The position numbers and the translations under genes were made by a program. From Pezizomycotina sp. ARF18 (lineage: Eukaryota; Ascomycota), in contig AZLU01000091.1 in assembly GCA_002224055.1 (NCBI GenBank), positions 1-64,000 of the forward strand: DNA of 64,000 bases. The letters run 5' to 3'. Positions 3,942 through 55,882 of the stretch are shown here, one piece after another (position 1 is the stretch's first letter; the number at the start of each line of letters is the position of its first letter). The notes under the pieces were generated by a model. It worked only from the letters and a program-made list of their open reading frames with translations, was not told the origin of the DNA and did not search any database.

Positions 3942-4985
3942 ATGTCTAAAGCTCCAACCAAAGACACCCAGGCCGTCTCCGCTGACGCTGGTACCAAGGA
4001 CCTCAAGGAGAACGCTCCCAAGGCCGACAACCCCACGAAGACCGAGGAGAAGGTTGAGAACTCCCCTAGCCTGAAGGACCAAAACCTGACGGCCAAGCTC
4101 CAGGACTCCATCCAAGCAACCATCAACGGCGTCAAGGGCCTCTTCATCAAGGACGAGGACCAGTCCGAGCCCAAGCTCACCGAGACCACGACCCTCAACC
4201 CCAACATCCCCAGGATCACCGTCACAACGTCCAGGGCATGAGAACAGGGAGAAGGACGTTAAGGGCCCCGACGGCAAGTACAGCCGGGTCTCGCCAGGTA
4301 ACCGTCACCTCATCCAAATTGATTCTCAAAACAATAATCTTTGCTGATTTATCTTTTTCTCTCGGTTTGTATGAAGCACCTTGAGAAGTACTCCGACCTC
4401 AAGCTCATCGTCGCCTTCCAAGAGTGAATACCCCGTCCACAAGATGATCCTCCTCGGCCACTCCCCCAAGTTCGAAAAAGTCTCTCGACACCACCACTAC
4501 CCCTCACTCCATCACCATCCCCGACGCCGAAGAGGAAACCTTCGAGCAGATCCTCGAGTACCTCTACTGCGAGAAATTCCCCAACACCAACATATTCGAG
4601 ACAGCGAAGCTCTACGTCGCCGCCAACGAGCTCGGCATGACCGCCCTCCGCGTCGACGCCGTCGCGGACTTTTGCGAAAAGGTTAAGCAGGAGGGTTTCT
4701 TCGTCAAGCCGAACTTTGAGGACTTCTTCGATGAGAAGGGGAACGAGACGGAGGCGTTGAAGAGGTACGATGGGGACAAGCGGCTCTTATTGGTGCGTTC
4801 TTGCTATCTTTGAGGATACGGGTATGATCCCCACTGGCGGGAAGGATCAGAGCCAGATCATGCCGTACGGGTTGACGAAGATGCTCGAGGTTCTGAAGGA
4901 TAAAGGTTGCTTGGGTACTCTGCTCGACCAGCCCCTCGTCCGCAGGTTCTTCAAAGGTAACGCGGCGCAAGCTTTGCGGTCTTGA
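3942..4985 (+). CDS. BTB/POZ protein (subfamily II)
   Basis: Exon 1 (3942-4297) encodes a Lys/Glu-rich polar leader starting 'MSKAPTKDTQAVSADAGTKD'. An intron (4298-4376, GTAACC...GAAG) precedes the BTB domain, which begins 'LEKYSDLKLIV' and continues with 'EYPVHKMILLGHSPKFEK', 'EQILEYLYCEKFPNTNIFET' and 'AKLYVAANELGMTALRVDAV'. The C-terminus has 'KGCLGTLLDQPLVRRFFKGN', matching the end signature of its paralogs. It is probably a cytosolic or nuclear adaptor; the substrate is unknown. Frames change several times (near 4230, 4430, 4480 and 4790), so either the read contains indels or the gene is recently broken. The ATG at 3942 fits the context and reading. Confidence 0.72.
4298..4376 (+). other. 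intron before BTB domain
   Basis: 79-bp GTAACC...GAAG intron joining the polar leader to the BTB start. Its position matches introns in at least ten paralogs in this window. Confidence 0.55.
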
Positions 4986-5493
4986 CGTACTACCGCTCCG
5001 TGACCATAGGGCTTAAAAGGAAGATGAGAGATATCAGATTTTTTTTATACTTACAAAAAGGGATTTAATTTCTTTTTATTGTTTTCTTCTGTTAACATGG
5101 GCCTGTTTTCTTTTTTTCTCTTCTTAAGTACTTTGATCTTTCTCACGGTATATCTCTACAACGGAAATAACAAACATATGCACGGTTTTCTCTTGAATAG
5201 TTACAAGCCGTATTCCTTTTCCTTTATTACGAAATGTAAAATAGGAGAGATACAATTACGAATCAGCAATAGCCATCAAGCACATACATTAAATTCTAGT
5301 GTTCATTCAGTTATTAACATTATTCCTCTCGCACCGTTACTGCTTGTATGTACTCCTTTTCCATGACGTTGGCTTACTAACCCCCCCTCCCCCCCCCTCT
5401 TTGGCTTTCGATCTTAACGGGTAGAATTCCCTCAGCATGTTCAGCGGTATCCACCTTTTAGTCCTCCCAATACTCCGTTCGTGCTTAAGCCTT
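4986..5493. other. spacer between converging BTB genes
   Basis: AT-rich 3' flank of the plus-strand BTB gene, with an interrupted C-run at about 5381-5398. No gene seen. Confidence 0.5.
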
Positions 5494-6131
5494 TCACGCT
5501 CGCTTCATCCTTTTTTTGGTTTTTTTTTTAAAAAAAAAAAAAAAGAAGCCCTTATCTTCGCTGCTCGCGTAATAGTACAAGAGCTTCACAGACGCGTCGT
5601 GGTTCTTATCGAGGAACTCGTCCATCTCGGTGTCCCGCGTGATGAGGTGCTTCAGGAAGCCCTCGGAGCGGACCGCGTCGAGGATCTTGCGTGATGTCTC
5701 GGCGTAGTTCTCGGGGAACGAGAGCACCAAAATAAACCCTTCCTTCAACTTCTGCACAGCCAGCGTCGTAACGGGGTTAGCGGGACACCCGTCGGCGCCG
5801 AATTCGGCGTATTTGCGTATCCTCTCAACTTTCTCTTCAAAGTCCTCCACGGCTTTCTCCGCCAGCGACGGGACCTGAAATTCTTGTGTCCATGGCGTAT
5901 AGCTTCGCGGTGTCTAGTATGTCTTTTACGTCGGGATACGAGCCGGCGTCGGAGTAGATGGAGTCCGGGAAGAGTTCCATTGTTTCCGGCCCGTATGTCG
6001 GGAAGCTGAGCGTGTCGTCCGCGTGGCGGAGCTTGGCGGTACGGGTGAAGTAGGCCGACCTGTTCGCCAGCATGGCCCTGTGGGCGTGGAAGTAATGGCC
6101 GCGGACGTCGAGCGTCACGTCTGAGAGCTCC
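5494..6131 (-). CDS. BTB/POZ protein (subfamily II)
   Basis: The domain starts at about 6131 after a likely splice acceptor: 'ELSDVTLDVRGHYFHAHRAM' then 'LANRSAYFTRTAKLRHADDT', 'DILDTAKLYAMDT'. After one frame change near 5880 the C-terminal half follows, with 'KLKEGFILVLSFPENYAETS' and the signature 'EMDEFLDKNHDASVKLLYYY'. It converges on the BTB gene at 3942-4985. The frame then runs into a T10/A15 block, giving an artificial Phe/Lys tail, so the true stop may be missing or misread. An ATG at 6159 or further upstream in a first exon could be the start. Family assignment is strong; the exact ends are not. Confidence 0.72.
5520..5544. repeat. back-to-back T10/A15 homopolymers
   Basis: Ten T are directly followed by fifteen A, at the 3' end of the minus-strand BTB gene. 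Two similar T-run/A-run junctions occur at 32477-32512 and 48176-48203. Confidence 0.9.
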
Positions 6132-6159
6132 TAGATCTCTGCCATCCTGTGAGCTCCAT

Positions 6160-7218
6160 GGTGTCAGAAGAAACGTTTTTTCCCATAGCAAACCGTTAGG
6201 ATTCTGCTGATGCAATGTTTTCTTTTACTTTTGGATCCCCGGCCGCTTTACGCCACTCATTTTTTTCGCATGCCGATGATGGGCGTGGACGCTCTCGGGG
6301 CTCTCCCTTCTAAGTCCGATTGTGACGTGTTCTGTGTTACTCTAGATCCAGTAGCCTTTTTGACAATACGGTCGTATTTTTAGTGATCGCGTGAACGGGT
6401 TCTTCCGATAACCTGCCGGCTTATAAATCAGGATGCGAAAAAAAAAAAGTGAAGTCCGTCGGACGAAGTAAAAAGCGCCAACCCCTCCTTTTTTTTTTTT
6501 CGGCATATTGAACGCCTTCCCAAGTTGGGAAATTCAAAATTGTGACCTTTCAAATGGCGCGTTAACAGCGAGCGCATGCGTGCACCAAGCGCCGGGCAAT
6601 GCAAGATTGAAACCGTTTCTGTCTAAGTGTATCCGCTGCTGATGTGATGTCGCTACTCGCTGTTGTGTGACGGAGCAGCTAGCTGCCCCTCGATGTTTGC
6701 TGCTCGATAGTTTGCTGCTCGGTGTAGTTTTGGCCATACTATTACCCAACGGATTGCTCGATATCCGCTACTCGATGCCCTTCTTTTTGTTCTGGGCCCG
6801 TCCAGGACGTTGTTTGCCGACAGCATATCCTGTCTTGGGCGTCGTCTTATACGCAGACGGTTCCCCAAAAAAAAACTTCCTCCGTTGTGCATAAGCGGGG
6901 ATTTTGCTTCGTCGTTAGTATACCTACTTATCACTTACTATGAATAATGATGAACACGCGAATAGCTTCTGAATAACTACTGGTGATCCTTGTTTATTTG
7001 ATATGGAAAGGTGTCATATTTCCGAGAGCCTTTTCTGACATGCAATTTAAAATAAAAAATAAAAAACAAATGGGAGAGGTTTTTAGAATAGAAGCGCCCT
7101 TTCCCTTAAGAATACTCCGTATTGATAGACAAATACCATTGGAAACGATTATATATAAGACTGTCCAAAGCAAAAAAGAAAAAAAAAAATCCGCTTCTCC
7201 TCCATTTAAACATTTTCT
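6160..7218. other. spacer with TGCTCGAT-type degenerate repeats
   Basis: No gene recognised. Between about 6625 and 6780 short related units (ATCCGCTGCT, TGCTCGAT, CTACTCGATG) recur on the plus strand. Open frames across it are repeat-driven. Confidence 0.4.
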
Positions 7219-8127
7219 TCACCCACTCCTGTACCTAGAGTTCGAATGGCTGCGCTCCGTGAAAAAGATAAGGACGTGCGCAGACATCTCGTGGTTATCC
7301 CTCAGAAGCTGCTGTACTTCTTCGCACTGGAACACATCCTTTTCGTACTTGCGGTCCGCGATTGCCGTGAAGAGGTCCTGGAAGAAGCCCGCGTACTCGT
7401 TCCGGTACACCTTCGAGAGGATCTTGAGTACCTCGACAATCTCGTCGATCGCGTCCGGCTCCGATAGGTTGTCGGTTTTCGCACGTTTCACCGTAGGTTC
7501 CAGTAGTCCTTCCTCGTCCGGTAGTCGTCGTCCGTTCCGGTGGTGACTGTGGCTGCGGAAGCCTTGGCCGACGCTCTGGAGAGAATGACGTCGTTCGCGG
7601 AGAGAGTCGCTTCGGCGTTTGGAGTTTGCTTAGGACGACCGCGTTTACGTGGCCTCGGGTCCTCCTCCTCGGCTCCCGCTGCAGGTTATTCAAAAGCAGC
7701 TGCTCCCTAGCTACCGTTCTCATATCAAGCGAGGAAACATTCGCAGGCTCGTACCGCTTACCCGGAGCCGCGACGCTCGTGCGCCTCAGTCACCAATCTT
7801 GTCGACGAGATCCGCTATCGCGGCGGCTTTCAGACCCGGTGCGTCAAAGTAGTCCGCCATCGCGAAGAGCTTCGCCGCTTCGACCATGCCGCCCGTGACG
7901 CCCCAGTGGCCGTAGAAGTAGACGACGAGGTACTTGAAGATGTCGGGATCCTCGTCGGGTAGGTCGACCTTGGAGTCGACGGATTCTTTGAACGTGTGTT
8001 TGTCGCTGAGCAGGCGGAAGAAGTAGTCGGAGTGCGAGCTCATGATGACCTTGTGGACGTCGAAGATGGCGGTTGGGTCGGTGCCGACGCGGATCTGCAG
8101 GTCGGTGAAGTGTTTGCCTTGGAGCAT
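7219..8127 (-). CDS. BTB/POZ protein with AT-hook in linker (subfamily I)
   Basis: The first 113 residues are an uninterrupted BTB domain: 'MLQGKHFTDLQIRVG', 'FDVHKVIMSSHSDYFFRLLS', 'VDLPDEDPDIFKYLVVYFYG' and 'AAKLFAMADYFDAPGLKAAA'. A splice acceptor (CAATACAG) lies directly upstream, so a short first exon is probably missing from this model. The linker contains 'PRKRGRPKQT', an AT-hook core (RGRP), at about 7629-7649, suggesting nuclear DNA contact. The C-terminal 90 residues are open again ('EVVEVLKILSKV'-like helix, then 'EVQQLLRDNHEMSAHVLIFF'). Frames change around 7790 and 7485. It is the best-preserved BTB domain in the window. Confidence 0.8.
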
Positions 8128-8756
8128 GCTGTATTGTTTGAAAGAGAAAGTTTCGAAACCAGTGAATCAGAGCAAGAAAATTAAAAGCGGCAAACGGAGG
8201 GGAACGAAATCCGGGTTGACATACGACAGCAGTCCGCCTGGATCCTTCGAGGTCATCTTTGCCCCTGAGAATGTGGTAGCTACCACCGGTATCGAACGAT
8301 TGCTTGAGCGGATAAAGCCGTACCCCTCTAGTATTGCTAAAACTTGAAAGAGTCCTTGAAAGCTTTGTAGAGCTTTGGTGTACCAGTACGCTGCGGTGTA
8401 TAGATAAAGGGGTAGGATTTTTTGACTGCTGGGTAATGAGGTTTTATGAGTCTGGGGACCCTCTCAAGGTTTTTTTCTCTTCTTTCCTTTTTTTTTTTTT
8501 TTTTTTTCCTTTTTACATTATTTTATTTTCTAGAAAAAAGAAGAATAACCAAATCAAATACTTGGTCAAGTGCATAAAAGAATAGATCGAGTACGTAAGA
8601 ACTCAAGTAAATACGTATAAATAAACGAAGATAGCATAATAAACCCAACTGCCTCGCTTCCTTCAACACTGCACCTTTAAAAACGAGTTTAAAAAAAAAA
8701 AAAAAAAAAAGGAATTACGGTCATAGAGCCTAACCGAACCATCCAAGGTTCCAACG
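8128..8756. other. intergenic between divergent BTB genes, with long T and A runs
   Basis: A T-run of about 22 lies near 8487-8508 and an A-run of about 20 near 8691-8710. This should hold promoters for the two divergent BTB genes. No TATA box is clear. Confidence 0.45.
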
Positions 8757-9736
8757 ATGTCAAGTTCGCGCTTCACCGAAGACATGGGTAACATCGTCTC
8801 GCGACGGACCAGCAAATCTTCCTCGGAGGCCCCGAGCCGGGCCAGGGCTGAACAGGTATATTAACCCTTTCCCCTTAAATCCCCGTTCACCTCCCCCTAT
8901 ACGACCCCCTCCATACTAACGCCTGCCTTCCTCACAGCATGAACAAAATGCGCCACCACTCCGACCTCACCCTCCTCGTCGCCCCTCCCAGCGGCCCTTC
9001 AGAGTCCACAAGGCAATCCTCGCAAAGCACTCCCGCTTCTTCGACAAAGCCATGCGTCCGCACAACCACCGCTCCTCTTCCTCCTCATCGCCGGCACAGT
9101 TAGTATCTCCCGTATCGAAGTACCCGATTTGGACGAGCCGACGTTCCCGCTGGTACTCGAGTTTTTATACTCGGAGAAGTTCCCGAAGGGTATGACGCTG
9201 CTGCAGGCCGCGTGGGTGTTCACGCAGGCTGCGGGGATATTGAAGGCCGGGAAGATGAAGTATAAGGCTATTAAGAGGTTTTGCGAGAAGATTGCGGAGG
9301 AGGAGTTTTGTAGGAAGGTTGTTGAGGAGAAGGAGGGAGGGGATACGTCGGAGGAAAGTGAGAGGGAGACAAAGTGGAGACGCAACGGGCGGGGAGGGCA
9401 GTAAAGACGGAGAGGACAGAAGCAAGGACGAGAAGAAGGAAAACAACAAAGGGAAGGAAAGGTAGGTAAAAAATCATCGAAGCGAAGAAAAAGAAAGCGG
9501 AGGAAGCGAGGAGTAAGTTCCAGGAAGACCTCGATACGCTGTGCGAAGCGATGATAGTCCTGTTTACGGCGTATCAGAACGACGACGCGAGTACTTCCTG
9601 AAGGTACTGGACGTTTTGAAGGAACGGTCTGCTGAGCGATATCATGAAGATGCCGAGGATGAGGCGGTCGCTGAGGGGTAACGAGGACGCCGCGCTGGCT
9701 GTTATTCAGTACATGGCGGAGAATTTTAAGCTGTAA
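8757..9736 (+). CDS. BTB/POZ protein (subfamily II)
   Basis: Exon 1 (8757-8855) encodes 'MSSSRFTEDMGNIVSRRTSK' plus a Ser/Arg leader. An 82-bp intron (8856-8937) has a perfect TACTAAC branch site and CTCACAG acceptor. The BTB domain follows: 'MRHHSDLTLLV', 'FRVHKAILAKHSRFFDKAMR', 'EPTFPLVLEFLYSEKFPKGM' and 'QAAWVFTQAAGILKAGKMKY'. A Glu/Lys-rich linker leads to 'FQEDLDTLCEAMIVLFTAYQ' and the end signature 'RMRRSLRGNEDAALAVIQYM'; TAA is at 9734-9736. About four frame changes occur (near 9000, 9110, 9400, 9590). The exon-intron structure and domain order strongly support a real gene, intact or recently decayed. Confidence 0.75.
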
Positions 9737-9849
9737 CTAAAGGATTCTGCCGGAGAACGTTCTGTTACTTTCGATGCATCTCCGGCGTTTAGACTTGTAA
9801 AAAGAGATCGATTACGACAAAAATCCGGTTCCTTCGAGAAAATCCGTTC

Positions 9850-10266
9850 ACTGTGTTTTGCTGTATTCGACTGTTTGACTTCTTCTGCAACGGATGTCTA
9901 CCAATTCTACGGCAAGCTTTTCGTCGCGGCGGTGAAACTCGGTATCGATGAGCTTAGGTGGGACGCACTCTACTACGTCCAGATACCATCGACAAAAGAG
10001 ACCTTTGCGCCCCGCCGCCGGGGATGGGGTACGAATTCATGCTCAACGACCCCCGCGCGTCGCGGGAAACGACGGATTTGCACCTCATCTGCGATGCCTT
10101 CTTGATCACGCTGGCGGATTTTCAAAGAGGAAGAGGTTCCACAGTACCTCGAGATCGTTATTACTGCACTGAGCCAAAAAGGGAAGGGTTTGCTGGGGGG
10201 CTTATGTGGAGTATCTGTCCGAAGTTGATATCGTCTACGTACTTCCAAGTTAATAGCTACTTGTAG
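9850..10266 (+). pseudogene. C-terminal fragment of a BTB-array gene
   Basis: Peptides in shifting frames match the region after the BTB fold in neighbouring genes: 'DVYQFYGKLFVAAVKLGIDE', 'GYEFMLNDPRAS' and 'ETTDLHLICDAFLITLADFQ', then 'EVPQYLEIVITALSQKGKGL'. No BTB 'SDL...VHK' start is visible between this and the previous gene, and the final Asn-containing signature is absent. It is best read as a truncated duplicate of the gene that ends at 9736. Confidence is moderate because only the helical tail can be compared. Confidence 0.5.
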
Positions 10267-10705
10267 ATGTGACTGTACATTTTAGAACGAGATGTATTTG
10301 ATCCTTTGGGAGGTTTCAAATACACCCAAATTTACTATCCTTTACTTTTTTAGTAGCCAGTACTACTAAAGTAAAGCAATAACTTTGTAGTCTCGGAGCA
10401 GCCGTGAGTGCTGGCTGCTCCGTTCAATCGTGGATATCCGCTGCTTATGTAATCTTGCAGTGGTATCGCCGCATCAAGCAAAAGTTCTCGGGTTATTTTC
10501 AGGTCCCGTTTTCCCCCGCAAGCTACAGTGACTCCCTTATTCCTGACGATAACCAGCGCTCGACGAAAGCCGAAAATCATACATACCGCAATTTGAAGTC
10601 GAAGCCAATTCCCAGTAAGCTACGACTCGCAGCCGGAATAGTAAACGATGAGTGCAGGATACCCGGGTTTGATAAAGGAGGGACGCCCGTCCTTCTAAAA
10701 AAAAA

Positions 10706-10736
<31 letters not shown>

Positions 10737-10891
10737 GAAACACTGCTATTTTCACAGCCTTGTCTCAACTTCTACCTCTTTGATTATTTATTATTATTAT
10801 CGTGATTTGGATTATCTTTACATCGTTTCTTCCGAGTTTTTTTTTTTTTCTTCTAAACACTATTCCTTCCCCGTACGCGTACACATGAAGG
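10267..10891. other. intergenic with hairpin and long A and T runs
   Basis: Contains a perfect 10-bp stem-loop (10394-10422), an A-run of more than 20 near 10698-10722 and a T-run near 10838-10850. No gene recognised. Confidence 0.5.
10394..10422. other. perfect 10-bp stem-loop
   Basis: CGGAGCAGCC (10394-10403) and its exact reverse complement GGCTGCTCCG (10413-10422) flank a 9-base loop. Confidence 0.8.
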
Positions 10892-11503
10892 ATGAAGGAG
10901 ATCGAGGACCTCTCGGACTCCACGCTGATGGTCGGGGACGCCAACCCGCGAAGAGTTACATTTTCCGCGCCCACAAGGCCGTCCTCGCCAACAGCTCGGC
11001 TTACTTCAGCGCCCTCCGCGGCGTCGCCGCGGTCCACATGCCCAACGACGACCCGGATACGGTGGGGTGGTTCCTGGACTACGTCTACTCCGGCGAGTTC
11101 CCCAGGCTCAGAAGCGTCACGGAAACGGTGAAGCTCTACGTCGCGGCCTCACAAATTCCAAGTTCCAGCGTTGGCGAACGCAGCTACGGCGGAACTTCTG
11201 CGGGAGAGTTTTAAAACTCGATACTTACTTTAAACCTGATATAATGGACTACATGCGTGAGGACATCGCCAAGGTGGGTGCGGCACTGGCTCAGGTCCTC
11301 AGCGTCGTGCCGGCGGACAGCCAACGGACAACTACCGGGAAAATTGCCGGAAGGTTCTCGACAAGGTCCGAGAGAAGGGTTACCTGAGCTACTTGATCGA
11401 GTCCGATAAGGACATGCGTGCTTTCATGACGGATAATAACGTCGCGTCCATTGAGATATTGATCTACTATGCGGGTAATGACGACAGGAAAGTAGGGTAT
11501 TAA
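10892..11503 (+). CDS. BTB/POZ protein (subfamily II)
   Basis: The domain begins 'MKEIEDLSDSTLMVGDAN', then in the next frame 'YIFRAHKAVLANSSAYFSAL', 'MPNDDPDTVGWFLDYVYSGE' and 'RSVTETVKLYVAASQ'. The tail shows 'DYMREDIAKVGAALAQVLSV', 'KVLDKVREKGYLSYLIESDK' and the signature 'DMRAFMTDNNVASIEILIYY'; TAA is at 11501-11503. Three to four frame changes are needed. An ATG at 10885 is an alternative start, and an upstream first exon may exist. It converges with the minus-strand BTB gene at 11753-12761. Confidence 0.72.
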
Positions 11504-11615
11504 GCGGAGACGGCTAGATGCTCCCCGGGAGAGAATCCAACCGCAACCATGGCTACCACTGACTCGAAAGCAGTGAAAGCAGTGAAAGTAGTTATATATA
11601 TAGATTGAATAGACT

Positions 11616-11630
11616 GGGGGGGGGGGGGGG
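11616..11630. repeat. G15 homopolymer
   Basis: Fifteen consecutive G on the plus strand between two converging BTB genes. Confidence 0.9.
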
Positions 11631-11752
11631 AAAGGATGAAGGACGCTAAGGGACAAAAAGGGCAAGGAAAAGGAAAACCAAATTGACAAATGTAAACAAA
11701 GCAAAGTGCCGAAAGCTCAGGCGATATAAAATTACCTGGAAAAGTAGAAAAC

Positions 11753-12761
11753 TCATGGATGGCTGCTCCACGACAACAGATGGCGTAGAAGAAAAAAAAG
11801 AGAGAATAGAGCAATACCTACCACGATACGCCATATCCAGCAGCCCTTACCGATCAAATCCATAAAATCCGTAAAATCGCGTATTTTTCTCGTCACGGTT
11901 TCATAATATAATATCACCATCACTTCCCACCACCACCTCCGCCAAATAATCGATAACCACCATACACAATCCGGGTGCCCCGCCATAACCTCCCTAACCC
12001 CCCTAACCTTCAACACCGCTCCCAACCAACCCTCCACATCCAAGCACCTCACGATCTCCTCATAAACCTCCTCACTACACGCACAATAAGCTCCAAACAC
12101 CACCTCGACCGCCTCCGCGACCTCATTGTGGAACCCCCAATTCCCACCGATCTTCTTCAGTTCTCCTTGAAGTCGTCGACGGCGAGTATTTGTAAAGCCG
12201 GCGTACCGTGTCGTGCGCGGCGGTGTACACGAGGGCAGCCTCGAGGAGGTTGTGGTGGGCTGGTACTCGTCCATGTGCAGGAAGTACAGCAGGTTGCCGA
12301 ACGCGAGCGATATGCCATCGACGGCGGAGATGGGAGGGGTTATTTCGCAGGGGGAAGAGGAGGAGAGGAGGTCGGCGAAGAAGGCCGATGAGCCGTTTGC
12401 GAGGACGGAGTGGTGGGCGGTGTAGAGCTTGGAGCCGACGCGGAGCCGGATGAGGGGTCTTTACTGTAGGTAGGGGCGAAAGTGGATTAGCATTGGCGTG
12501 AGTAGAGGGGGGGAGTGGGAGTTAGGGAAGCTTGGGGGGAATGAGGAGAGGAGGAGGAAGGGGATTGCTCACGCGGCCCGACAGCGAGCTCCTTGGCCCC
12601 CTTGCTGAAGCCGTGCTTGCGGACGTGGAGGGTGGCTTCCTGCTTGGGGGTATGCTGCTCGTGGGTCGTCGAGGGCGATTCCGCTGTCGTCGTGGTCGGC
12701 AGGAGGAGCCGCCTGGCGGGCTTTCGTCCCCCTTAGAGAGTGAGCGGCGTCGGGAGGTCAT
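11753..12761 (-). CDS. BTB/POZ protein (subfamily II)
   Basis: An ATG at 12761 opens an Arg/Ser/Pro-rich leader ('MTSRRRSLSKGDESPPGGSS'). A 109-bp intron (12464-12572, GTGAGC...CTACAG) precedes the BTB domain: 'IRLRVGSKLYTAHHSVLANG', 'SAFFADLLSSSSP', 'LEAALVYTAAHDTVRRLYK'. Then 'NEVAEAVEVVFGAYCACSEE' and 'GVREVMAGHPDCVWWLSIIW' give the C-terminal helix and end signature. The last part of the open frame ('FTDFMDLIGKG...') is probably 3' flank, so the true stop may lie nearer 11880. Frame changes occur near 12250 and 12200. Confidence 0.65.
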
Positions 12762-14110: not shown

Positions 14111-14995
14111 ATGGCCAACGAACCTTCCTCGGGCACCCATCCGGTCTCGGCGTTTCCGAGGGTACGCGCGCCGTCGCATTCAAAGGCTTCGAGAGCAACA
14201 GCAACGGAGGCGGGAGCTCCAACGGCCCGGACTTGCCAGGTATCTAACCCCGCACCTCTTCGAAATTTCTAACCATCTTTTTTTTTCAGGCCTCTCCTTC
14301 CGGCGAACCTGCATGTAATACTAACGTAAAATTTTTGCCTGTCTACAGGAGGCGACAAAAACGTTCTGACCGCTTACCTTACCCTCCCCCTCCCTCCGCG
14401 CTAAATGGTTCCCGATCCACCGCCTCCGCCACTCTACTTCATACGAGACCACGCCCCCGAACCGCGCGCGTTACCTACACCGCGCCCGCGCTTGCAATCC
14501 CGAGCGGCATACCCTAGGATGTTCTGATGGACGTGCTGGAGTTCATTTACGCCCGCCGACGGCAAATTCCCCGCATGGACGACAGAGCAAGATAATCTTC
14601 AGGGTAGCGGAGGTATACGTCGCGTCGTGCGGGCTTGGTGGTTGGCGCGCTGAAGATGCTCGCGGCGGAGGAGTTCGAGAGGAGGCTCGCGGTGCAGGAG
14701 TTTTGGGATAGGTCGCCGGAAGGAGCGGATGAAAAATTGTCGTATAAGGGGAGGAATTACGGGGGGATGTGAAGCTGCTGGGGACGTCGTTGAAGCTTAT
14801 GCTGTTGGCATATGATGATACGGACAAGGAGATTTTTCGAGGGGATTTTGCTGCGTTTGGGAAATAAAGGCTTATGGGTACGTTGCCGGCGTCGGATGAG
14901 ATGAAGCCTTTCCTGGCGAACCACCAGGAGGTCGTGCTGGCGCTGCTGGAACTTTTACGCGAGGAACGATATTCCGTGAGACTGGCTGAAACGGG
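14111..14995 (+). CDS. BTB/POZ protein, decayed (subfamily II)
   Basis: Exon 1 starts at ATG 14111 ('MANEPSSGTHPVSAF') and ends at a clear donor. The 109-bp intron (14240-14348) has a TACTAACG branch site and GTCTACAG acceptor. BTB landmarks follow, scattered over frames: 'MDVLEFIYA', 'KFPAWTTEQDNL', 'VAEVYVASCGL', 'GALKMLAAEEFERRLAVQEF'. The tail reads 'KLMLLAYDDTDKEIFRGDFA' and the signature 'EMKPFLANHQEVVLALLELL'. The start of the BTB fold is hard to read, and frames change more often than in its neighbours, so it may be genuinely degenerating. It converges with the phosphatase gene. Confidence 0.6.
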
Positions 14996-23869: not shown

Positions 23870-24540
23870 TCAAGCGATCGTTAGAGAACGAATAATTTGG
23901 GTAGCCAATAGCGGATTTTCTTGTATAGGCTCCTGGATTTCATAGTCTCGCAAATAGCGCACTCCACACTCCTGTTATACTAAGCGTCTTAAGAAGCTTG
24001 TCAAACAGAGCTGCGTCTCTTGTTTGATAAACCCCCAATAAGATAGCCACTGCCGCAGCGATATCCGTGATCCTGTCCTTCACGCCTTCGTCTCCAAGCT
24101 TCTACCAACGGGATTAACGTGAACCCAACGATAGGGAGCCCTAGCAACAACCGCGCGGAGGTCACCCGTTTTCACCACGGTACACCAATTCCTGCAGCGT
24201 GTCCTGTCCGAAACCTCCTCCTTGTTTGCGATCTTATCGATTACGTCTACCATCGCCGCCTTCTTCAGCTCCGGAGAGTCGAAGTAGTCCGCCATCGCAT
24301 ATAACTTCGCGGGTTGGAGCAAGCGCCAGTTAATCAGCCAACCTCCGTAGAAGTATACCAGCATCGAACCGAAGACTATGGGGTCGTCGTCGGGAACTCG
24401 ACCAGAGACTCTGCAGACTCCCTAAAGATGCTGAACTTCAGAAGTCGGCGGAAGTACCCGAGTACGCGGCAGGATGACCCTATGCACCTGAAACAGCGTG
24501 GGGGGTTTAGCACTCCAAGATTGACTAGTTTGAATTCGGT
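23870..24540 (-). CDS. BTB/POZ protein (subfamily I)
   Basis: After an unclear N-terminus the frame gives 'VHRVILP', 'YFRRLLKFSIFRESAESLVE', 'DDDPIVFGSMLVYFYGGWLI' and 'AKLYAMADYFDSPELKKAAM' with 'VDVIDKIANKEE'. The second half shows 'KDRITDIAAAVAILLGVYQT' and 'RDAALFDKLLKTLSITGVWS', and after another frame change the signature 'EIQEPIQENPLLATQIIRSL', ending at a stop at 23870-23872. The order and spacing match the other subfamily I genes. Frame changes occur near 24400, 24180 and 23960. Confidence 0.68.
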
Positions 24541-25459
24541 CGTGTCTCGGCACCCAGTTCAGCTGCTCTTTCAACCTTTATCGTTAGGATCTGAGTTCTC
24601 CGGTTGTGAACATTCTACAACAAGAAAACGAAATGAAAGTATGTCAGCGATGCAAAATGCCTACTCTGGGGTGTCGGATTGTTCATCAGTACGCACTCTG
24701 AATAAAGAACTGAATTTAATCGCTTGAAGACGGCTTTAGGGTTACGCTGAACGGGAGATATCATATTCCTTGGCTTGAGGAATATCTTCGATTTCAAGGA
24801 TTTTGCAAGAGAAGCAGCCGATGCGAAAATACAGGATCCACGGAGGTATCTGCCGATATCAATTCTTTTTCATGTAAGGCTACTTGTTTCGCTCATTATC
24901 GAGCCGATCATCTGTTTATAGGCTCCTGTGAATTGAATTGCATCTGAAAGGTTCAAGTAGCAAATCCCACGAAAAAAATGGACGGAAAGCTAATTTATGA
25001 AAAGACTTGGAGAAAGTTTGTTCTCGTCCACAGCCCCTTTTTCCCGGCCACGCACGCTTTGGGGGAAAAAGGAGAAAGTCAAAGAGAATTCTAATATCAA
25101 CGGCACATATAAGAGTTAGTATCTGCGCATCTAACGATTACTGTTACAGATTTGCGTCGGAATTTCAAAAGGTACAGCTAGCTAATTTTCACTTTGGAAT
25201 AACGGGACGGATTCTAACCGAAGAGCTGTCGATATCTTTCAACAGTAAATACTTTCATGCTTGCATAACCGTTTGCCTTTCAATGACAGCAGCAACGGAT
25301 GGGCAAGCTTCTCATGGAGTCATTGCGGCTTTTAATTTCAATTAGCTCCTCAGGTGTGCTACGATAATGTCTCTTTTAAATTACGCTCAAAATTTGAACT
25401 ATGAAAGACTTTTGAAAGCTCACGCGCACTAATGTTACTCCCAGCTCTTGATACTTTCT
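24541..25459. other. intergenic, no gene recognised
   Basis: Only short frames without motifs on either strand. Confidence 0.4.
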
Positions 25460-26574
25460 TCATGCTTCCCGAAGGATCCTAGAGAGTGCGCCGATGACGA
25501 ACATGGAAAGGTCGGAATTGTCCGCCGGCAGCGTGCTAACATCCTTGGCCTTGATGATGAATTGCCATTCATCGAAAGATTTGATAGCCTTGTCCGTGCG
25601 GTCAGTCACTGCCTTGATCAGATTATAGAAAAGTTCGGCGTCCCTTTTGATAAAGCTTAAATAGCGACTGACTGTATTAGTCATGAGATTGATGATGTTA
25701 GCCATTTCTTGATCCCCTTCCTGTTCCAGCTACCGTCGCCTTCCGAGTCAGAGTCGTCATCGGAGGAGAATAGGAGGATGAAGACAAAAAAAGGGTTGAG
25801 CCATCGAAGTAAGGAGTGATATTCGTGGGTTGTTGGTTGATATGCAGTGCTGGCTGATCTTGGGCTATAGATTTGTCTTCAACGGCATGCGCAGCAGGCT
25901 TAGCCTCTTCTTCTGGCTCCGAACCCGGCTCATCTGTCTGGATGACGGCGCGGTTGCGTAACATGGAATGCCAATGAGTCTTCATCTCGTCCTTCCTGTG
26001 AGACCCCGCGATAGCATATTCCCGCAACATCCCGAGAGCTTCGCTAGATCTAAAGGCTATCAAGCCCTGTGTAGATTCAAACGATCTTTTGCTAGTGGCT
26101 TCGCTGAGTCTGTATCTCTTGTACCTCAGAACTTCAATCGTTTCCATAATGTACGCCATGGTAGCCTTCTTCAGTTCCGGCGCGTCGAGATAGTCCGCAA
26201 GCTCATAAAGCTTAACGCTGCTGTTAATATCATGTCGGTCAACCACGTGCCGTAAACGAAGCCACGAAGCGCTCGAAGATCTTGGAGTTTTCGTCCGGGA
26301 GTTTGACGTGCGACTCCACAGACTCGGTGAAGTTTCCGCTTCCTGTGAGGAGCTTCCTAAAGTAGCCCGAGTAAGCTACCACGATGGCTTTGTGAACCCG
26401 GAAATCTTTCGGGGCGTTAAAGCCGAATGACACGGTCAATCTGTGAAGTAGCCTTTCTTCAAGAGTCTGAGCCATACGAAATGTCAGCGTATTTATCTAA
26501 AGGATTCTTATATTCGGTTAAGACTATCTTACGTATCTAGGGGGCCGAGATCCTCCGATAGATTGAGCTCCATT
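25460..26574 (-). CDS. BTB/POZ protein with acidic linker (subfamily I)
   Basis: Exon 1 starts at ATG 26574 ('MELNLSEDLGPLDT') and ends at a GTAAGA donor (26533). The BTB domain begins 'LKKGYFTD' and 'LTVSFGFNAPKDFRVHKAIV', then 'AYSGYFRKLLTGSGNFTESV' and 'HVKLPDENSKIFERFVA'. A 182-residue open frame follows with 'SSVKLYELADYLDAPELKKA' and an acidic linker ('EPGSEPEEEAKPAAHAVEDK'). The last frame (25705-25460) has 'MANIINLMTNTVSRYLSFIK' and the signature 'TLPADNSDLSMFVIGAL'. Frame changes occur near 26450, 26250 and 25700. A long open linker suggests the gene is, or was recently, functional. Confidence 0.75.
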
Positions 26575-27369
26575 TTGGCGGTTACTTCAAGTTCTGCTTC
26601 TTTATACAATGCAGGAGTAGCTCAGGAGTAGCTGGATATGCTTCGATTCGAATAGAAGCCCGATATATCTACCGATGTGAAAGCTATTTTGTTGGAACTA
26701 TCGAATACTGTCGTAGTAGATTAAGCAGAAGGTGAGAGACGGCGTGGCATTTATAACCAGTAGGAATAGACGGAGATCCACCTATAGACCGGAAGCAAGA
26801 TGAAATTAGGGCCAAGGGCAATAGAATGCATGTCTCATATAAGATCCTATATTTAATTATGGTGGAGGAATACTACGAGGGTCAATAACATGCGACATAA
26901 TCGTACGGAGTGACCCCACGGCGGATGAACTCCACATACTAGGCCATTATTTTGATTCCCTCCTTTATATACTGCTTCTCCCCTCACGATAGCCACGTGC
27001 CATAAGATATAATTTCTATTTTTGTATTGCTTTCGATATCGATTTATTTAAAGCAACTATCTCTTCCTTCGTTATCTCATAAAGGCCAAGGCTTGATAAT
27101 ACATGGTTGTGCTTTATATAAGTCCATACAAGTAACTTTCTACAAAAGGATATCGCCAGCACGTTATTCTGCCACCAAAAATAAAGTCCTTGAGAGTCGG
27201 ACTTTCATTCCTTGAAAGTAAAATATTTAAAAAAAAGAACAGCCAGGGCGGGGTTGCCAGGCATCATATCACGTATACGCTCCTTCGTAACCAACTCCTG
27301 CAAAGCGTTTTCGGAATAGGGTCCGGTTTATCACAGTGGCCATGGCCGCACCCGCTACCGGCCACGCAC
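26575..27369. other. intergenic, no gene recognised
   Basis: AT-rich upstream region of the minus-strand BTB gene at 25460-26574. No gene seen. Confidence 0.4.
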
Positions 27370-28328
27370 GCCCATGCCTGCACCTAGCTGCGGCGCCGGG
27401 CTGGATGCGATAGTTTTAATGAGCGCGCGGAACAAGGCAACATCCTGGCTCTGCTAGAACCTGCCGAATGCCACGAGGGCGTCCGCGACCTCGTCGACGA
27501 TGTCCGCCATGAGATCCTGCTTTTCGTTCTTCCATTTGTCGATTTCCGCGAGCGCTTGTGCATCGATTGGACTACCCCATCCTCCGTCGTGATCGTCCTC
27601 TGCGTGCGGAAGGGGGAAGCAGGTTCAGGTTCAAGCTCTCCGTGGCTTTCTTCCTTGCGGGATGCGATGCTGGTGCGCGGGCCCAAGAGCGAGTATTCAC
27701 CTTGTAGTAACCCGGCAACCCGCGAACCTTCTGTTTCCTTGAAACCTCGTACATCATCTTGTCGTCGGGATGCGACTTCTCCCTAAGATTCAACTCCAAA
27801 CGTCATTGAAGTGCTTCTTCGAATGCGACTCAGCAATCGCCTTCCTTCTCTCCCCGAGCCTCTGCATCTTCTACGATATCCACCATCGTTGCCTTCTTCA
27901 ATTCGGGCGCGCCCAAAGTAATCCGCCAGTTCGTATAGCTTGACGGAGCTACAGATATTCTCATCAATGAGCCAATCACCGTAAAAGAAAGCGATCGAGC
28001 GTTCGAAGACCTCAGGGTTCTCATCGGGGAGCTCGACCTGCGATTTTACGCATTCGGTGAATTTGGCGGCGTTGGGGCCCGTGAGAAGTTTGAGGAAGGA
28101 GCCGGAGTAGGCGGTCATGATGTTCTTGTGGACGTGAAAGTCCTGCGCGGGAGTACCAACTGAGATGACGAGGTCCGCGAAGAAGCGTTTCATTAGGACC
28201 CTAGGAAGCGTATCACTGTTAGCAAAGCCGCGGTCTGAGATGATGGAGCTAGAAGGGGATACTTCGTTAGCTTACATTCGGAGACCGCCGAGATCAGCGG
28301 GTGTCTCATCATTATGAGCTTTGTCATC
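27370..28328 (-). CDS. BTB/POZ protein (subfamily I)
   Basis: First exon peptide 'DKAHNDETPADLGGLRM' splices over a 75-bp intron (28201-28275, GTAAGC...CCTAG) to 'VLMKRFFADLVISVGTPAQD'. BTB landmarks: 'FHVHKNIMTAYSGSFLKLLT', 'QVELPDENPEVFERSIAFFY' and 'SSVKLYELADYF' then 'PELKKATMVDIVEDAEARGE'. The linker is open as 'NLREKSHPDDKMMYEVSRKQ', and the helical end reads 'ALAEIDKWKNEKQDLMADIV', 'DEVADALVAFGRF' and 'QSQDVALFRALIKTIASSP'. The final Asn signature is not visible, so the tail may be truncated near 27400. The true start may lie in a further upstream exon. Confidence 0.72.
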
Positions 28329-29160: not shown

Positions 29161-30246
29161 CTAAGCCCGATTCTTCCTCAACGCAGCTTGAACCTCACCA
29201 TCCCTGAACACCCACTTCTCGTACCCTTCCCCGCGGATCGCCTCGAAGAGCTTCTTGTAGAGCTCCATGTCGCCCCCTTGGTAGACGCTGCACAAGATTG
29301 GGATCGCCTCGGTGATTTCGTCGAGCAGCTCGTTCTCCTGCTGCGGCGTGGCGCCTGCGAGTTCACTTGCGCGATCGGCGGTGGGGTCTTGTTTTGTGGC
29401 GGCAGACGTGTGGAACCTGGTACGATTGCCTCCAATCGCGTGGCTCCACCTGCTCCCAACATCTGCCTCGTTGCGCGAAGACGGGCTTGTTGCAATTGAC
29501 TCGTATTTTGGTGGGTGGTCGGGTAGGGTGAGCTACGGCGGCAGAGAGGGATGGAGGCAGCTGCATCGGACGAGCGGAGGGCGGGGCCAGCGGGTAACCT
29601 CACCATGAAGATATTTGTACGGGTAAACATCCTCGCGTTCCAGCCGCCCTTCTCGCTCTTCTTGCTCTTCTTGCTCTTCTTGCTCTTCTTATCAAATCTG
29701 CAAATCATGCTGACGATCTCGTCCATTACAGCACTCTTCAACGTCGCAGCATCGAAGTAGTCTGCCATCGCGTACACCTTCGCAGCACGCAGGATGCTCG
29801 CAATCTCGGGTTTCTTGCCGTAGAACAGCATCACGAGGAAGTTGAAGAGTTTGGGATCTTCGTCGGGGAGGTTGAAGTGTGATTCCTTCGACTCCTGAAC
29901 TGCTCGCTCGTCAGAAGGCGGAAGAAATATTTAGAATGGGCGGACATGACGAGTTTGTGCAGCTTGAAAAGCTGAACTCCATCGCCAGCGCCAACAGCGA
30001 TGGTCAGGTCGGTAAAGTGGGCCGCTTGCAAGATCCTGAGGTCATGTCAATGGTTGGTGATGAGTCTAGCAGACACTACGCACAGCTAACGTAGTAGATA
30101 CACGGCACCGGTACTTTAGTGGTTATAAGGCAGGAGGCGGGGGTAAAAATACCCGTAAAGTCCGTCACTCTCCTCACCCGAAGCTCCTCCGGGCATCTCG
30201 CTGGATCGTTAGTGCTCGCTGTGGCAGAATCAGCAAGGGACGACAT
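29161..30246 (-). CDS. BTB/POZ protein with Lys-Ser-Lys repeat linker (subfamily I)
   Basis: Exon 1 (30178-30246) encodes 'MSSLADSATASTNDPARCPE' and ends at GTGAGG. The intron (30036-30177) ends CCTCAG. The BTB domain follows: 'ILQAAHFTDLTIAVGAG', 'VQLFKLHKLVMSAHSKYFFR', 'DEDPKLFNFLVMLFYG' and 'AAKVYAMADYFDAATLKSAV'. A run of KKSK repeats (29651-29690) could be a nuclear signal. The tail in another frame reads 'ELLDEITEAIPILCSVYQGG', 'DMELYKKLFEAIRGEGYEKW' and 'VFRDGEVQAALRKNRA' with stop at 29161-29163. Only about two frame changes are needed, fewer than most paralogs. Confidence 0.78.
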
Positions 30247-30513: not shown

Positions 30514-30551
<38 letters not shown>

Positions 30552-31200: not shown

Positions 31201-31928
31201 ATGACCGGCTTCAATATGTAAGTGATACTGCATATAATAATTCATCATCATTTTTACTAAGCCGAAGCACATCAGGTTTTTCTAACATTTAAAATTTTCT
31301 ATTCCAGGATACTGAGCAAATCGCTTTTCTCAGACTACAAGCTAACTTCGGAGTGGAACACCGAAAATTCAACGTCAACAAGGCTGTGTTATCGCCTACT
31401 CGAATACTTCCTCGAAATGCTCACATGCGATGCATTCAAGGGGCTAAAGAGTCACGCGTCAATCTGCCCATGAGATCCGGACCTGTTCGTGTTATGCCTC
31501 CGCTGAATCTACTCTTATCTCCTGAAAGTATATACCGAGAATATGGTAAAATCCGCCGAGCTATACAGGATGGCAGATTACTTTGTCTTCCCGGAGGTGA
31601 AATCCTCAGTCGTGGCAAAAACTTGTCAAGTACGTCGTCAAAGAGCCGTGCTGTAACTTCTTTCGGGACTAAAGGAAGAAGGATGTATTGGTCTATCTGG
31701 CGGAAACGACGGTGGCTGGTGAGAACGACCTAACCCAAGGGTATTCTGAAGTTTCCTATTATTAGCACGTTTACCGAACGATGACAAGGATTTGTTGAGG
31801 GAGTTTTATCTTTGCGCTCCATGGAAAAAGGCCTTTGGAACAAATTCTTTAAATCGGCTGATGTCATGCGAATTCTGAGGTCTAACATGGATCTCGCTCT
31901 CCTCGTAATCGACACTTTGGCCGACTAG
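31201..31928 (+). CDS. BTB/POZ protein (subfamily I)
   Basis: A tiny first exon (31201-31217, 'MTGFN' plus two bases) splices over a 90-bp intron (31218-31307, GTAAGT...TTCCAG) to 'ILSKSLFSDYKLTSEW'. Then 'FNVNKAVLS', 'YFLEMLTCDAFKG', 'AKESRVNLP', 'NMVKSAELYRMADYFVFPEV' and 'KSSVVAKTCQ' are read in changing frames. The end is 'GLWNKFFKSAD' and 'VMRILRSNMDLALLVIDTL', with TAG at 31926-31928. The region between about 31640 and 31790 is poorly preserved. The 6-residue first exon is unusually short but keeps the array's shared intron position. Confidence 0.68.
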
Positions 31929-32746: not shown

Positions 32747-33491
32747 GGCGATGCAAACAGTAACGAGGATCCTCCGGCAACTGGTCTTCACAGATACATA
32801 AGCAATACAATGTCTTGATGTCTGATCGTATTGCTCTAGTACTGACTGGTTCTTCCCAGGCTTCTTAATGCAGGGCTGTTCTCGGATCTACAGGTGAATC
32901 TCGGAGCGGGGAAAAACGCGGAGTAATTTCGACGTCCACAAGAACATCTTGGCTGCATACTCAGGCTACTTCTTCAGGCTGCTGATGGGAACGGATTTAA
33001 GGAGGCTATCGAACCTCGCGTTAAACCTACCAACGAAGATCCTAAGCTTTTCCAACTATACCTTCGCTGTGTCTACGACAACGCTACCACGGTCCACTCG
33101 AAAACCCTTTTAGAGGCTGCTAAGCTCTACAGCATGGCGAATTACTTCGACTCTCCCGACGTCGAAACGGCCGCTATGAATGATATCGTTTCGCGCGTCC
33201 AGTTCGCGCCTCGTTCTACCTTCTTCCGTGATGATACTAAGTCGATGAGATCGTCGCAGGAGGCCTACTCGGAACCAGGAGTCATCCAGGCATTCGATAT
33301 CCTCAGCACCATCTACCAGAGCCACAGCGCGGAGTTATTCAGGCGCTTCATTTTCGCGGTTAATACAAAGAAGGGTATTGAAGCGGCTTGTTCAAGACGG
33401 CGGAGGTTAAAGAGCTTCTGGGTCGAATGCGGAATTGGCGGTTTTGGTCATTGATGCTTTTACGGACAAGAGGTTTTCGCTTGCTAAATGA
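32747..33491 (+). CDS. BTB/POZ protein (subfamily I)
   Basis: A first-exon peptide 'DANSNEDPPATGLHR' (about 32747-32794) resembles the 'HNDETPADLGGLR' leader of the gene at 27370-28328. An intron ends TTCTTCCCAG at 32859. The BTB domain begins 'LLNAGLFSDLQVNLGAGK', then 'FDVHKNILAAYSGYFFRLLM', 'NEDPKLFQLYLRCVYDNATT' and 'AAKLYSMANYFDSPDVETAA'. The tail is open: 'IQAFDILSTIYQSHSAELFR' and 'SNAELAVLVIDAFTDKRF', with TGA at 33489-33491. Frame changes occur near 32930, 33000 and 33390. Start codon not determined. Confidence 0.72.
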
Positions 33492-38397: not shown

Positions 38398-38864
38398 ATC
38401 TCATGCTCCTGCGGTAGCTTGGTTCGTAGTCCGTGGATCCACCACAGTAGAAGATGAGGCTGGGGAATTTGTTTTCGGTAGTTTGCTCTTGGAGCTCAAA
38501 GACAAATATACGGTGCTTGTCAACCTACATCAAGCTACTTCCGACGATAGATATACGGCTAGGCGAAATAAAACTCCGCCTCTCTCCCGACAAGGCTTCA
38601 CTCCCGCAACACCACGACCTTTCCGAGCGCTTCTGAGCGGGATGCCGCAACAATTGTCAACGATGTAGCATTGAGGTTTATTCAAAAGGAATGGGAGGAA
38701 GAGAGCTAAAATCCCAGTTGTCCTTTTATTTATTTATTGATGGATCTATTTTTGTAAATTTAGAACTTATAAGAAATTTCTTGGGCTAATTCAGCTGCTC
38801 AACCTTCTCTCAAGAGACATACATCTGTTCTAACTCGTCTTATCGACCGTATATCGATTACATC

Positions 38865-48175: not shown

Positions 48176-48203
48176 TTTTTTTTTTTTAAAAAAAAAAAAA
48201 AAG
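48176..48203. repeat. back-to-back T12/A16 homopolymers
   Basis: Twelve T directly followed by sixteen A, the third such junction in the window. Confidence 0.85.
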
Positions 48204-51860: not shown

Positions 51861-52712
51861 ATGGCTGAAATTAGAACGCTAGATAGCTCTGAAAGGATCA
51901 AAGCATTCACCAGGTAAGAGACTAAATCCCTTCCCCCGCCTTTATTTCTCTATTCCTGGGGGAAAAAAACCCTCCTTCTAACTCTCTTTCTTTTACAACA
52001 ATAGGGCCTACCTCCGCGACCGCGACCACGACATCTCCATCTTCACAAACGAAAGAGGGCAACTACGGAAAATTCCTCGTCCACTCGAAGTCATCTGCGA
52101 GCAGTCCGCCTACTTCCGTGACATCCTCGATAGCGACTTCGCCCCATGCAGCGACGACGGCACGCAGCACATCCACATCCGCAGTTTCGACCGCGAAACC
52201 GTCGAGAAAGCGCTCCGGTTCATGTACAACGATTCAACACATAACCTCATACAAGTCTCAGGGGGTCTAGTTAAGGCGCCAGACTATTCGTTTTCGCGGG
52301 CTTCCTAGGCTTAAGAGGCTACTGCAAGAAATCGTCGACATTGAATTGCCGCCGATAATAGCGCATTTCAAACTAGAGGACAAGGAACTCATACACTAGA
52401 GTTTTTTTATGCATTCTTGGGGGGTGTGCTGTCGAAGAGGCGGTGGAGGCGTATAGAGTACTCAAACGCGCTCATAGAGGCGTGGGAGATGATGTACAGT
52501 TACCGGGATAAGAAAAAAGACTTTCGAATCCTATGGAACGACCTGAAGGGGTGGATGGGGGGGCACGGGGGGAGCTGGCTGATGAGAATTACCAGAGGGC
52601 TGTTATGGGTACTCTTAGGGAGATGGAGGTTATGGCGATTATGTCGAACGAGGATGCTAATTTGGCGTTGCTGGTGTGTGAGCTTTTCTTGATCGCTGTT
52701 ACTGCGGCGTGA
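51861..52712 (+). CDS. BTB/POZ protein (subfamily II)
   Basis: Exon 1 starts at 51861 ('MAEIRTLDSSERIKAFTR'). A 91-bp intron (51914-52004, GTAAGA...CAATAG) leads to 'AYLRDRDHDISIFTNE', then 'EGNYGKFLVHSK', 'ICEQSAYFRDILDSDFAPCS' and 'SFDRETVEKALRFMYND'. Later frames give 'GFLGLRGYCKKIVDIE', 'NALIEAWEMMYSYRDKKKDF' and the end signature 'VMAIMSNEDANLALLVCEL', with TGA at 52710-52712. About five frame changes occur, including two around the BTB 'VH' strand. The first exon, intron position and end signature agree with the other array genes, so membership is secure. Confidence 0.72.
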
Positions 52713-53685: not shown

Positions 53686-54441
53686 AGTGGCTAGCACTTA
53701 TGGGGAATTGTTGTTTCTAGGAAGCACAGAAAGGGTACGATCTTATATGTGTGGTTCTCGGAAAGGCGAAAATGGAACTCAGGAAGGAGAAGATGAGCTA
53801 CTCTTAAGTATGTGCGAGTTGAGCGCAAGTAAGTACTGCGACGGAGAGCTCTTATCTAGCCATTTATCCAATCAGAAACCCGCCTTTATCTTTCCTCTCC
53901 TTCAGCTCAAGATTTTTCCAATATTAAGCTATTTTCTTTTCTTTTCTTTTTTTAACCTATTACTTCCAACGATTTCAGGACGCGGCTAAACCCTGTATCT
54001 GCAGGTCGGAACTACGGCAAAACATATGCATCACATATACATTAAAAGAATCGTTTAAAAAGTGATGAAAATACCACTGATCATCAAAACTACGTAGCTT
54101 TGCTTTGGTTCTCTTTCCTTTTCTAATCAAAAGGAAACGCAGAAAAGAAAAGGCCCGAGAACCCTTTTTGCCATAGACACAAGATTTACGCGATAACATT
54201 TGTGATTTGTGATAAATTAGTACTCCTATAGCGGCTGTTTTTAGAACGTATAAAACCAACCTAGCGACTTCGATATGCCTAAGTATGCGGGAGTACCTAT
54301 AATAAAACTAATATTACTATCAATCCCTGATTTCATATTAATCCAAAAAAGGGGAAAAGAAGGGTGTGTGCCTACAAGAGTAAATCATCACGTATGACTA
54401 TACGGAACGCCATTACAAAGTCGTCGTATTGGTCCTGCAAA
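53686..54441. other. intergenic, no gene recognised
   Basis: No motif-bearing frame. T-rich tracts at about 53930-53952. Confidence 0.4.
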
Positions 54442-54648
54442 TTAGTACAGCGCGCAGCGACGACGTGTGGGCGGCAGGTTCTGACGTCTCAGGGACCGGG
54501 AGGGGTTAGGGCACGTGATCTTCGGTTGCGAGTCGTCGGATGAGCCGTCGTCGGATGAGCCGTCGCCGCTTTGGGCGGCGGGGGCGGCACTGACGGCTGT
54601 CACAAAGGCGAGGAATGGAATGAGGATCATTATGAAGGATGACGGCAT
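54442..54648 (-). CDS. small secreted protein with Asp/Ser repeat
   Basis: 68 residues in one frame. Signal peptide 'MPSSFIMILIPFLAFVTAVS' with cleavage near 'SA|APAAQ'. The mature peptide has a short tandem 'GSSDDGSSDD' repeat, then 'KITCPNPSRSLRRQNL' and 'RRRCALY', giving two cysteines and a basic tail. No family is recognised. The DNA repeat CGGATGAGCCGTCGT explains the peptide repeat. The C-terminus may be altered by a frame change, as the last 20 residues are Arg-rich. It could be an extracellular or effector-like protein. Confidence 0.5.
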   Translation of the reverse strand: MPSSFIMILIPFLAFVTAVSAAPAAQSGDGSSDDGSSDDSQPKITCPNPSRSLRRQNLPPTRRRCALY

Positions 54649-55128
54649 GACTAACTATTTGTACTGATGGCTTTAGAAACACAGAAGATGAAGTATACTG
54701 GGAATATGCAACGTCGATTTCGGTCTTCGCTTTGGTTCGGTGGTTCGTTTCCTGTTTATTTATCACCGGGGTTTTATTTATCACCGGGTAATAGCAGGAG
54801 ATGGGTAAATTGGAATACTAAGTGAAATTACGTAGAGGAAAGGCGGCATTCGGTCCTCTTCATAAAGACACTGTTTCCCTTATGAGCTGTCTGTGCTACG
54901 TTTGACGAACGAACAACAATTAGTGAGAGGGCTGAACGGCTGTTACTTTTTAGGTTTATCGCGCTTAACCGAATTCGATCGATATAACGCTGCACGCTCA
55001 GTCCAGATGGAAATGCTTAGGGCTGAAATAAGTAAAAGTGGGGAAAGTATAACCGCCAAGAAAGAAATAACAGCGACACACACCGAAGACAAATTACGTA
55101 TTTTCCCCCTCGCCTCCGAGAGATACCA
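54649..55128. other. intergenic, divergent promoter region
   Basis: Lies between the minus-strand secreted-protein gene and the plus-strand BTB gene. A direct repeat 'TATTTATCACCGGG' occurs at about 54756-54789. Confidence 0.4.
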
Positions 55129-55882
55129 ATGGACGCTTCAGCACCTGTGGCACCCGAGCGCGCTAGCAACCAGCCTCCTCCAGCGAGAAACTGGGTCATC
55201 AGTTATATCAACGATGTCGGGAATGTCGTCCGCGGCGTCGGAGCCGTCGACCGCGATAACGAGCCCCCGGGGGTCCGTCTCGGAAGTCCGCATAGCGGGG
55301 TTTCGGAGATACCCAGGTAAACAAGAACAAAACCCCTTTTTCTCCGCACCCGCGACGAGTTTTCGCTCACCGCGATGTATTTTTGAAGCATGTTCAACGA
55401 CCATCGCTACTCCGACCTGACGATCTACACCCGCTCCGACCCATCCACGTCCACCGCGCCATCGTCTGCCAGAACTCCACCGTCCTCGACGCGTGGTGCG
55501 ACGCCCACCGCGACCAAAATGTCTACACCATAAAGCAGTTCCACGGCGAAGCCGTGCACTGCGTCTTCTCCTTCCTATACAGCGGTAGACTAACACAGTG
55601 CCGCACTCGACCTCTCGAATTACAAGTCCTCGCGTGCGCTGCCGATGCGCTCGTGTCTCGCGCACTTAATGCCGACGAGGGGACTAGTATGGCGGAGATG
55701 CTGGTCGAGGTTAGTTTGGAAGTGTCGGGGAGTGAGTATGTTAGCTTTGAGAATTTCGTGGTTGGGTTGAGTAAGGCGGGATTGGCAGCGATGTTTTGGA
55801 GGAGTGGATGAGGATTACGATGGAGAAGTCGCCGTGGCTGGCGATGGAGGTTTTCAAGGTGCTTATCAGGCATTGTCAGTGA
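55129..55882 (+). CDS. BTB/POZ protein (subfamily II)
   Basis: Exon 1 (55129-55316) encodes 'MDASAPVAPERASNQPPPAR' and a polar leader. A 72-bp intron (55317-55388) precedes 'MFNDHRYSDLTIYTRSDP', then 'HVHRAIVCQNSTVLDAWCDA', 'YTIKQFHGEAVHCVFSFLYS' and 'LELQVLACAADALVSRALNA'. The tail reads 'FENFVVGLSKAGLAAMFWR' and, in the last frame, 'MRITMEKSPWLAMEVFKVLI' ending with TGA at 55880-55882. Only two frame changes are needed (near 55440 and 55800), making this one of the better-preserved array genes. Confidence 0.75.

Follow-up and report, generated by a model that had tools for sequence, protein, structure and literature searches.

The first hairpin of the BACK domain in KLHL3 is the 3-box, which contacts Cul3 (PMC3616122). 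The BTB domain of SPOP alone binds Cul3 at 1.0 'mM' as printed (probably micromolar), compared with 13 nM for BTB-BACK (PMC3616122), and the SPOP BACK domains self-associate with micromolar affinity (PMC9998093). In KEAP1 the 3-box lies at the start of BACK, and the rest of BACK adds little to the affinity for Cul3 (PMC10564622). The BTB1 protein of Neurospora (NCU04838) is reported to bind Cul3 in co-immunoprecipitation (PMC2996332). Here, these systems are compared with an array of BTB genes of Pezizomycotina sp. ARF18, located in bases 1-64000 (the window, the whole stretch of DNA analysed) of contig C91, which is 152,461 bases long. A preliminary description of the window had proposed that thirteen loci of the array share a C-terminal helix pair, here called the tail, which lies outside the BTB fold, can be recognised even where the linkers are unalignable, and represents a separate second module of the array.

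The tail motif very probably corresponds to the final helix pair of a BACK domain that is short and divergent in sequence and comes after BTB in a large fungal family. A Cul3 role of the array proteins is argued by analogy and is somewhat favoured, and the two together, a divergent short BACK tail and a radiation of Cul3 adaptors, make up the reading that we consider probable. The chain would run from BTB through helices A and B, which occupy the position of the 3-box, to helices C and D, which constitute the noted motif. By analogy with the human ubiquitin-ligase adaptor SPOP, the φ-x-E loop of BTB would dock on Cul3 together with helices A/B. Behind the 3-box, helices C/D would complete the helical stack; they could also mediate BACK-BACK self-association, as in SPOP. 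The array would then be a radiation of Cul3 adaptors, in which some copies have no φ-x-E and several contain frame changes. For the array proteins, both Cul3 binding and self-association are plausible on this analogy.

The fold was obtained from an external homologue, P0024, whose confident predicted model has two helix hairpins after BTB in the arrangement found in SPOP. The helix pair of this model superposes on the SPOP BACK together with BTB, with the tail pair as the second of two hairpins in a short BACK of the SPOP kind, after that of the 3-box. Going by this model, the tail can be said to fold, and presumably to work, like a short BACK of the SPOP type without membership of the Pfam BACK families. 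We infer that the window loci share the fold of the homologue. A model of the window module has five helices in a plausible order (pLDDT, the predicted local distance difference test score, 69.4), and a structure search with it, run against five chains only, gave no informative match and carries no weight on either side of the BACK question. An alignment that combined window proteins with full-length external ones came out misaligned and was left out of folding.

That the tails are related to each other was established with profiles run on the window and 33 other genome stretches, which comprise 194,830 bases of the 46,361,250 in the genome (408 contigs). A seven-sequence seed profile, made of three window tails and four tails of other contigs, found non-seed tails at 9620 + (expectation value, E, 9e-5), 11261 + (0.0014), 29164 - (0.009) and in L016 (0.003); the strongest reversed decoy had E 0.44. 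Iteration gathered 19 fragments, and the decoys then lay at 0.02-0.05, near the inclusion threshold. The cleanest test used a profile of nine tails from other contigs only, searched against the window. It found eight window fragments at E<=2, seven of which are on array loci and on the correct strand; the fragment at 9620 is strong (E 3e-6), and the best reversed decoy has E 1.6. The binomial P of this enrichment is about 3e-6, with the locus zones, which were drawn with the loci known, making up 12.2% of the six-frame residues. A profile of 13 rows (the nine tails and four external ones) gave a weaker result, nine matches at E<=2. Five of these are tails, one falls within the BTB part of locus 12 and the other three lie elsewhere; the best decoy has E 4.9. 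Judged by these profiles, the resemblance among the tails is real, and they bear out the proposal that a helix pair at the C-terminus, not part of the BTB fold, is conserved and can be recognised even though the linkers cannot. All seven strings quoted for it are present in the six-frame translation (4935-4982 +, 5569-5628 -, 7261-7320 -, 11411-11470 +, 14898-14957 +, 31863-31919 + and 52629-52685 +). The consensus has no match in the six frames as it was quoted. When loosened it has three, of which a single one, at 31866, falls on an array locus. At least three quoted strings (EVQQ.., EMDE.. and DMRA..) have an Asn spacing one residue longer than that of the consensus.

A BTB domain above the Pfam cut-off is present in 10 of the 29 window open reading frames scanned, one per locus. 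By Pfam, these loci (1, 2, 3, 4, 6, 10, 11, 12, 16 and 17, ten of the 14 that bear a tail) encode BTB/POZ proteins (PF00651). The BTB match is weaker than the cut-off at loci 7 and 14; at loci 8, 9 and 13 the frames scanned gave no BTB match, and these were classed as BTB loci by eye. The features of the array are the following.

4932..4982, +, tail motif of BTB locus 1 (PLVRRFFKGNAAQALRS); frame ends after 17 residues; iterated profile E 0.024, decoy level
5566..5631, -, tail motif (helices C/D) of BTB locus 2; seed row; profile without window rows E 1.8
5632..5760, -, helices A/B (3-box position) of BTB locus 2; seed-profile search
7258..7323, -, tail motif (helices C/D) of BTB locus 3; seed row; profile without window rows E 0.14
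7324..7452, -, helices A/B of BTB locus 3; seed-profile search
7789..8166, -, BTB domain of locus 3; PF00651 E 8e-15; φ-x-E as FKE at 7981-7995
9653..9718, +, tail motif of BTB locus 4; profile without window rows E 3e-6
11408..11473, +, tail motif of BTB locus 6; seed profile E 0.0014; without window rows E 0.51
11939..12004, -, tail motif of locus 7 (BTB below cut-off); seed row; without window rows E 0.043
12005..12133, -, helices A/B of locus 7; seed-profile search
14895..14960, +, tail motif of locus 8, weak; iterated profile E 0.88; no BTB match in frames scanned
23943..24074, -, helices A/B of locus 9; seed profile E 0.06; no BTB match in frames scanned
25478..25543, -, tail motif of BTB locus 10; read by eye
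27217..27282, -, tail motif of BTB locus 11; external profile E 1.9; profile without window rows E 0.11
27786..28271, -, BTB domain of locus 11; PF00651 E 3.5e-11; φ-x-E as FTE at 28050-28064
29164..29199, -, tail motif of BTB locus 12, truncated by a stop codon; seed profile E 0.009
29200..29328, -, helices A/B of BTB locus 12; seed-profile search
31857..31922, +, tail motif of locus 13, weak by profile; iterated profile E 0.035; no BTB match in frames scanned
33400..33465, +, tail motif of locus 14 (BTB below cut-off); read by eye; no Asn
52623..52688, +, tail motif of BTB locus 16; string quoted in the preliminary description; absent from the iterated profile list
55790..55855, +, tail motif of BTB locus 17; iterated profile E 5.3; read by eye; no Asn

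At locus 9 (23.9 kb) helices C/D were not seen and only the first helix pair is kept. The tails of loci 10, 14 and 17 were chosen by eye, and loci 1, 8 and 13 are at or near decoy level. With 14 tail-bearing loci tabulated, these included, the figure of thirteen is about right. The reading frame changes between BTB and tail at window 4375-4982, 5554-6200, 10880-11500 and 11756-12520. These may be introns, indels or assembly errors, and introns or assembly errors come into consideration because the pieces of a cullin-3-like gene on contig C13 also lie in different frames. Dinucleotide indices of C-to-T mutation bias are mixed from locus to locus and point to no conclusion. The whole genome has 52 places that match the Pfam BTB model at E<=0.001, with several on each of contigs C5, C91, C223, C298 and C87, which suggests repeated local expansion of BTB genes on these contigs.

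The φ-x-E contact described for KLHL3 and SPOP lies in the α3-β4 loop. It is present in window loci 3, 9, 10, 11 and 14 (as FKE, FTE or FRE), at loci 9 and 14 in a frame other than that of part of BTB. The array loci are accordingly of two kinds (window 4300-12550 versus 23900-33600): locus 3 (7.9 kb) and loci 9, 10, 11 and 14 keep φ-x-E, and loci 1, 2, 4, 6 and 7, together with 16 and 17 (52 and 55 kb), do not show one; loci 8, 12 and 13 are placed in neither group. The contact was read directly in L005, L007, L009 and L015, the three other rows of alignment A3 have it at a hand-made join, and it is also found in L002, L006, L011, L012, L014 and L017 of the same genome. This genome contains a cullin-3-like gene. 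Two pieces of the cullin gene on C13 were tested and Cullin-3 is the best match for both, with Cullin-4 about tenfold worse in E-value each time; the tested piece of a second cullin gene matches Cullin-4 best. Cullins also lie on C4 and C15.

Several observations limit the reading as a short BACK of Cul3 adaptors. The fold is that of a homologue and not of a window protein, and the Pfam BACK models have no match above cut-off among 10 proteins. PF24570 (BACK_BPM_SPOP) leaves 23 of 24 external proteins without a match at E<=10, the sole match, P0005, being below cut-off. A genome search with PF07707 also gave no match, but its controls were silent too and absence is not shown by it. The family is not filed in the Pfam BACK families because the sequence models do not recognise it. 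By sequence reading, φ-x-E was not seen in window loci 1, 2, 4, 6, 7, 16 and 17, and several loci change frame between BTB and tail. The last two observations would fit a BACK-like tail that has no Cul3 role and only lends stability to dimers of BTB, in transcription or chromatin proteins for instance, and they would also fit an array of non-functional debris. This explanation is unlikely, given that five window loci and relatives on other contigs keep φ-x-E, that the genome has a cullin-3-like gene, and that the pieces of that gene are themselves in different frames, so that the frame changes in the array may be introns or assembly errors. A bolder form of the adaptor reading, which we regard as doubtful, is a fungus-specific radiation of Cul3 adaptors with a BACK beyond recognition by sequence models, in which a sub-group (4-6 and 9-12.5 kb) would have lost φ-x-E, kept the dimerising tail and would compete with the Cul3-binding copies.

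A distinct, array-specific module, in which the C-terminal helix pair would have a conserved Asn and a function of its own and would be unrelated to BACK, is improbable. It would agree with the silence of the Pfam BACK models, with the frequency of Asn in the motif (8/14 window loci compared with 3/12 and 2/9 elsewhere), and with the fact that profiles built from external proteins only, in a plain hidden Markov model search, do not reach the window loci. However, the Asn position outside the window is mostly N, D, H or G, the pair of the homologue superposes on the SPOP BACK along with BTB, and both BTB genes of other contigs and those of other fungi end in related tails. Among the genes of the same genome with such an ending are some that have a segment like VYxxTPxSDRGLRD. 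A database search with an alignment found 56 proteins among 7,999 scored candidates. An organism name is given for 24 of the 56, and 22 of these 24 belong to ascomycete genera by our own assignment; 36 homologues were examined by sequence and 24 aligned. Another alignment search found six proteins, and a query with the single protein L007 found none among 468 candidates. The window-only and external tail profiles align motif to motif with an hhalign score of 23.6 (maximum of 200 column-permuted controls, 17.5), at an hhalign probability of only 48% over 26 columns. The link between window and external tails runs via intermediates because the external-only profiles reach L025 (6e-9), L007 (2e-4) and L005 (0.002) of the same genome, not the window loci. 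Although Pfam has no label for it, the tail is a normal component of proteins of a known kind. It is not described in the titles and abstract starts that a limited search of open-licence literature on fungal BTB and BACK listed, and it may be described in the literature. A module peculiar to the array is not what these comparisons support, and what was found comes close to the outcome that the preliminary description had named as its refutation, ordinary BACK helices and no distinct module: the model of the homologue has that fold, although the Pfam models are silent and the fold was not shown on a window protein. As a whole, the preliminary observation is partly confirmed and its first interpretation partly supported.

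A chance pattern of amphipathic helices chosen by eye is hardly credible: the quoted expression has no match and several loci are individually at decoy level, but seven of eight matches fall on array loci, column-permuted controls score lower and locus 4 reaches E 3e-6 from a profile without window rows, so that the permuted controls and the nine-tail test refute a chance origin for the tail set, though not for each weak locus.

CxxC motifs follow the helical tail in some BTB proteins of the genome, two in L007 (1220-1951) and one each in L025 (279-980) and L014 (666-998), and possibly form a small zinc-binding end. The window also contains, at 37217-38400 (-), a gene that by eye is BTB-like but of a different type (SPVWNKSLDP ... 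HDKVPESVTF), with no Pfam match in two open reading frames and no tail match in the iterated profile list. A long open frame at 35818-36897 (+) encodes a multi-spanning membrane protein, which we take to resemble chromate transporters.

The reading of the tail as a divergent short BACK accounts for a conserved region of these fungal BTB proteins for which Pfam has no entry, and it proposes for their genes a function that can be tested, that of ubiquitin-ligase adaptors. With this reading, the array is not mistaken for the bearer of a new module.

Among the known systems, the plant BTB-BACK protein NPR1 superposes on the same model stretch with a larger root-mean-square deviation (3.9 Å) and over a longer chain segment (56-258). 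The deviation is likewise larger (4.6 Å) for the KLHL/KBTBD proteins (BTB-BACK-Kelch, PF07707). The full BACK of four expected hairpins (PMC3616122) and the Kelch repeats of these proteins were not seen here. Neurospora BTB1 is likewise a fungal BTB protein, compared here for its Cul3 binding. The closest named system is the SPOP/BPM type of MATH-BTB-BACK Cul3 adaptors (PF24570). The fungal proteins differ from it in their variable linker between BTB and helix A and in having no MATH domain in the window and own-genome open reading frames scanned, and the model of the homologue P0024 shares with it the arrangement of two hairpins after BTB.
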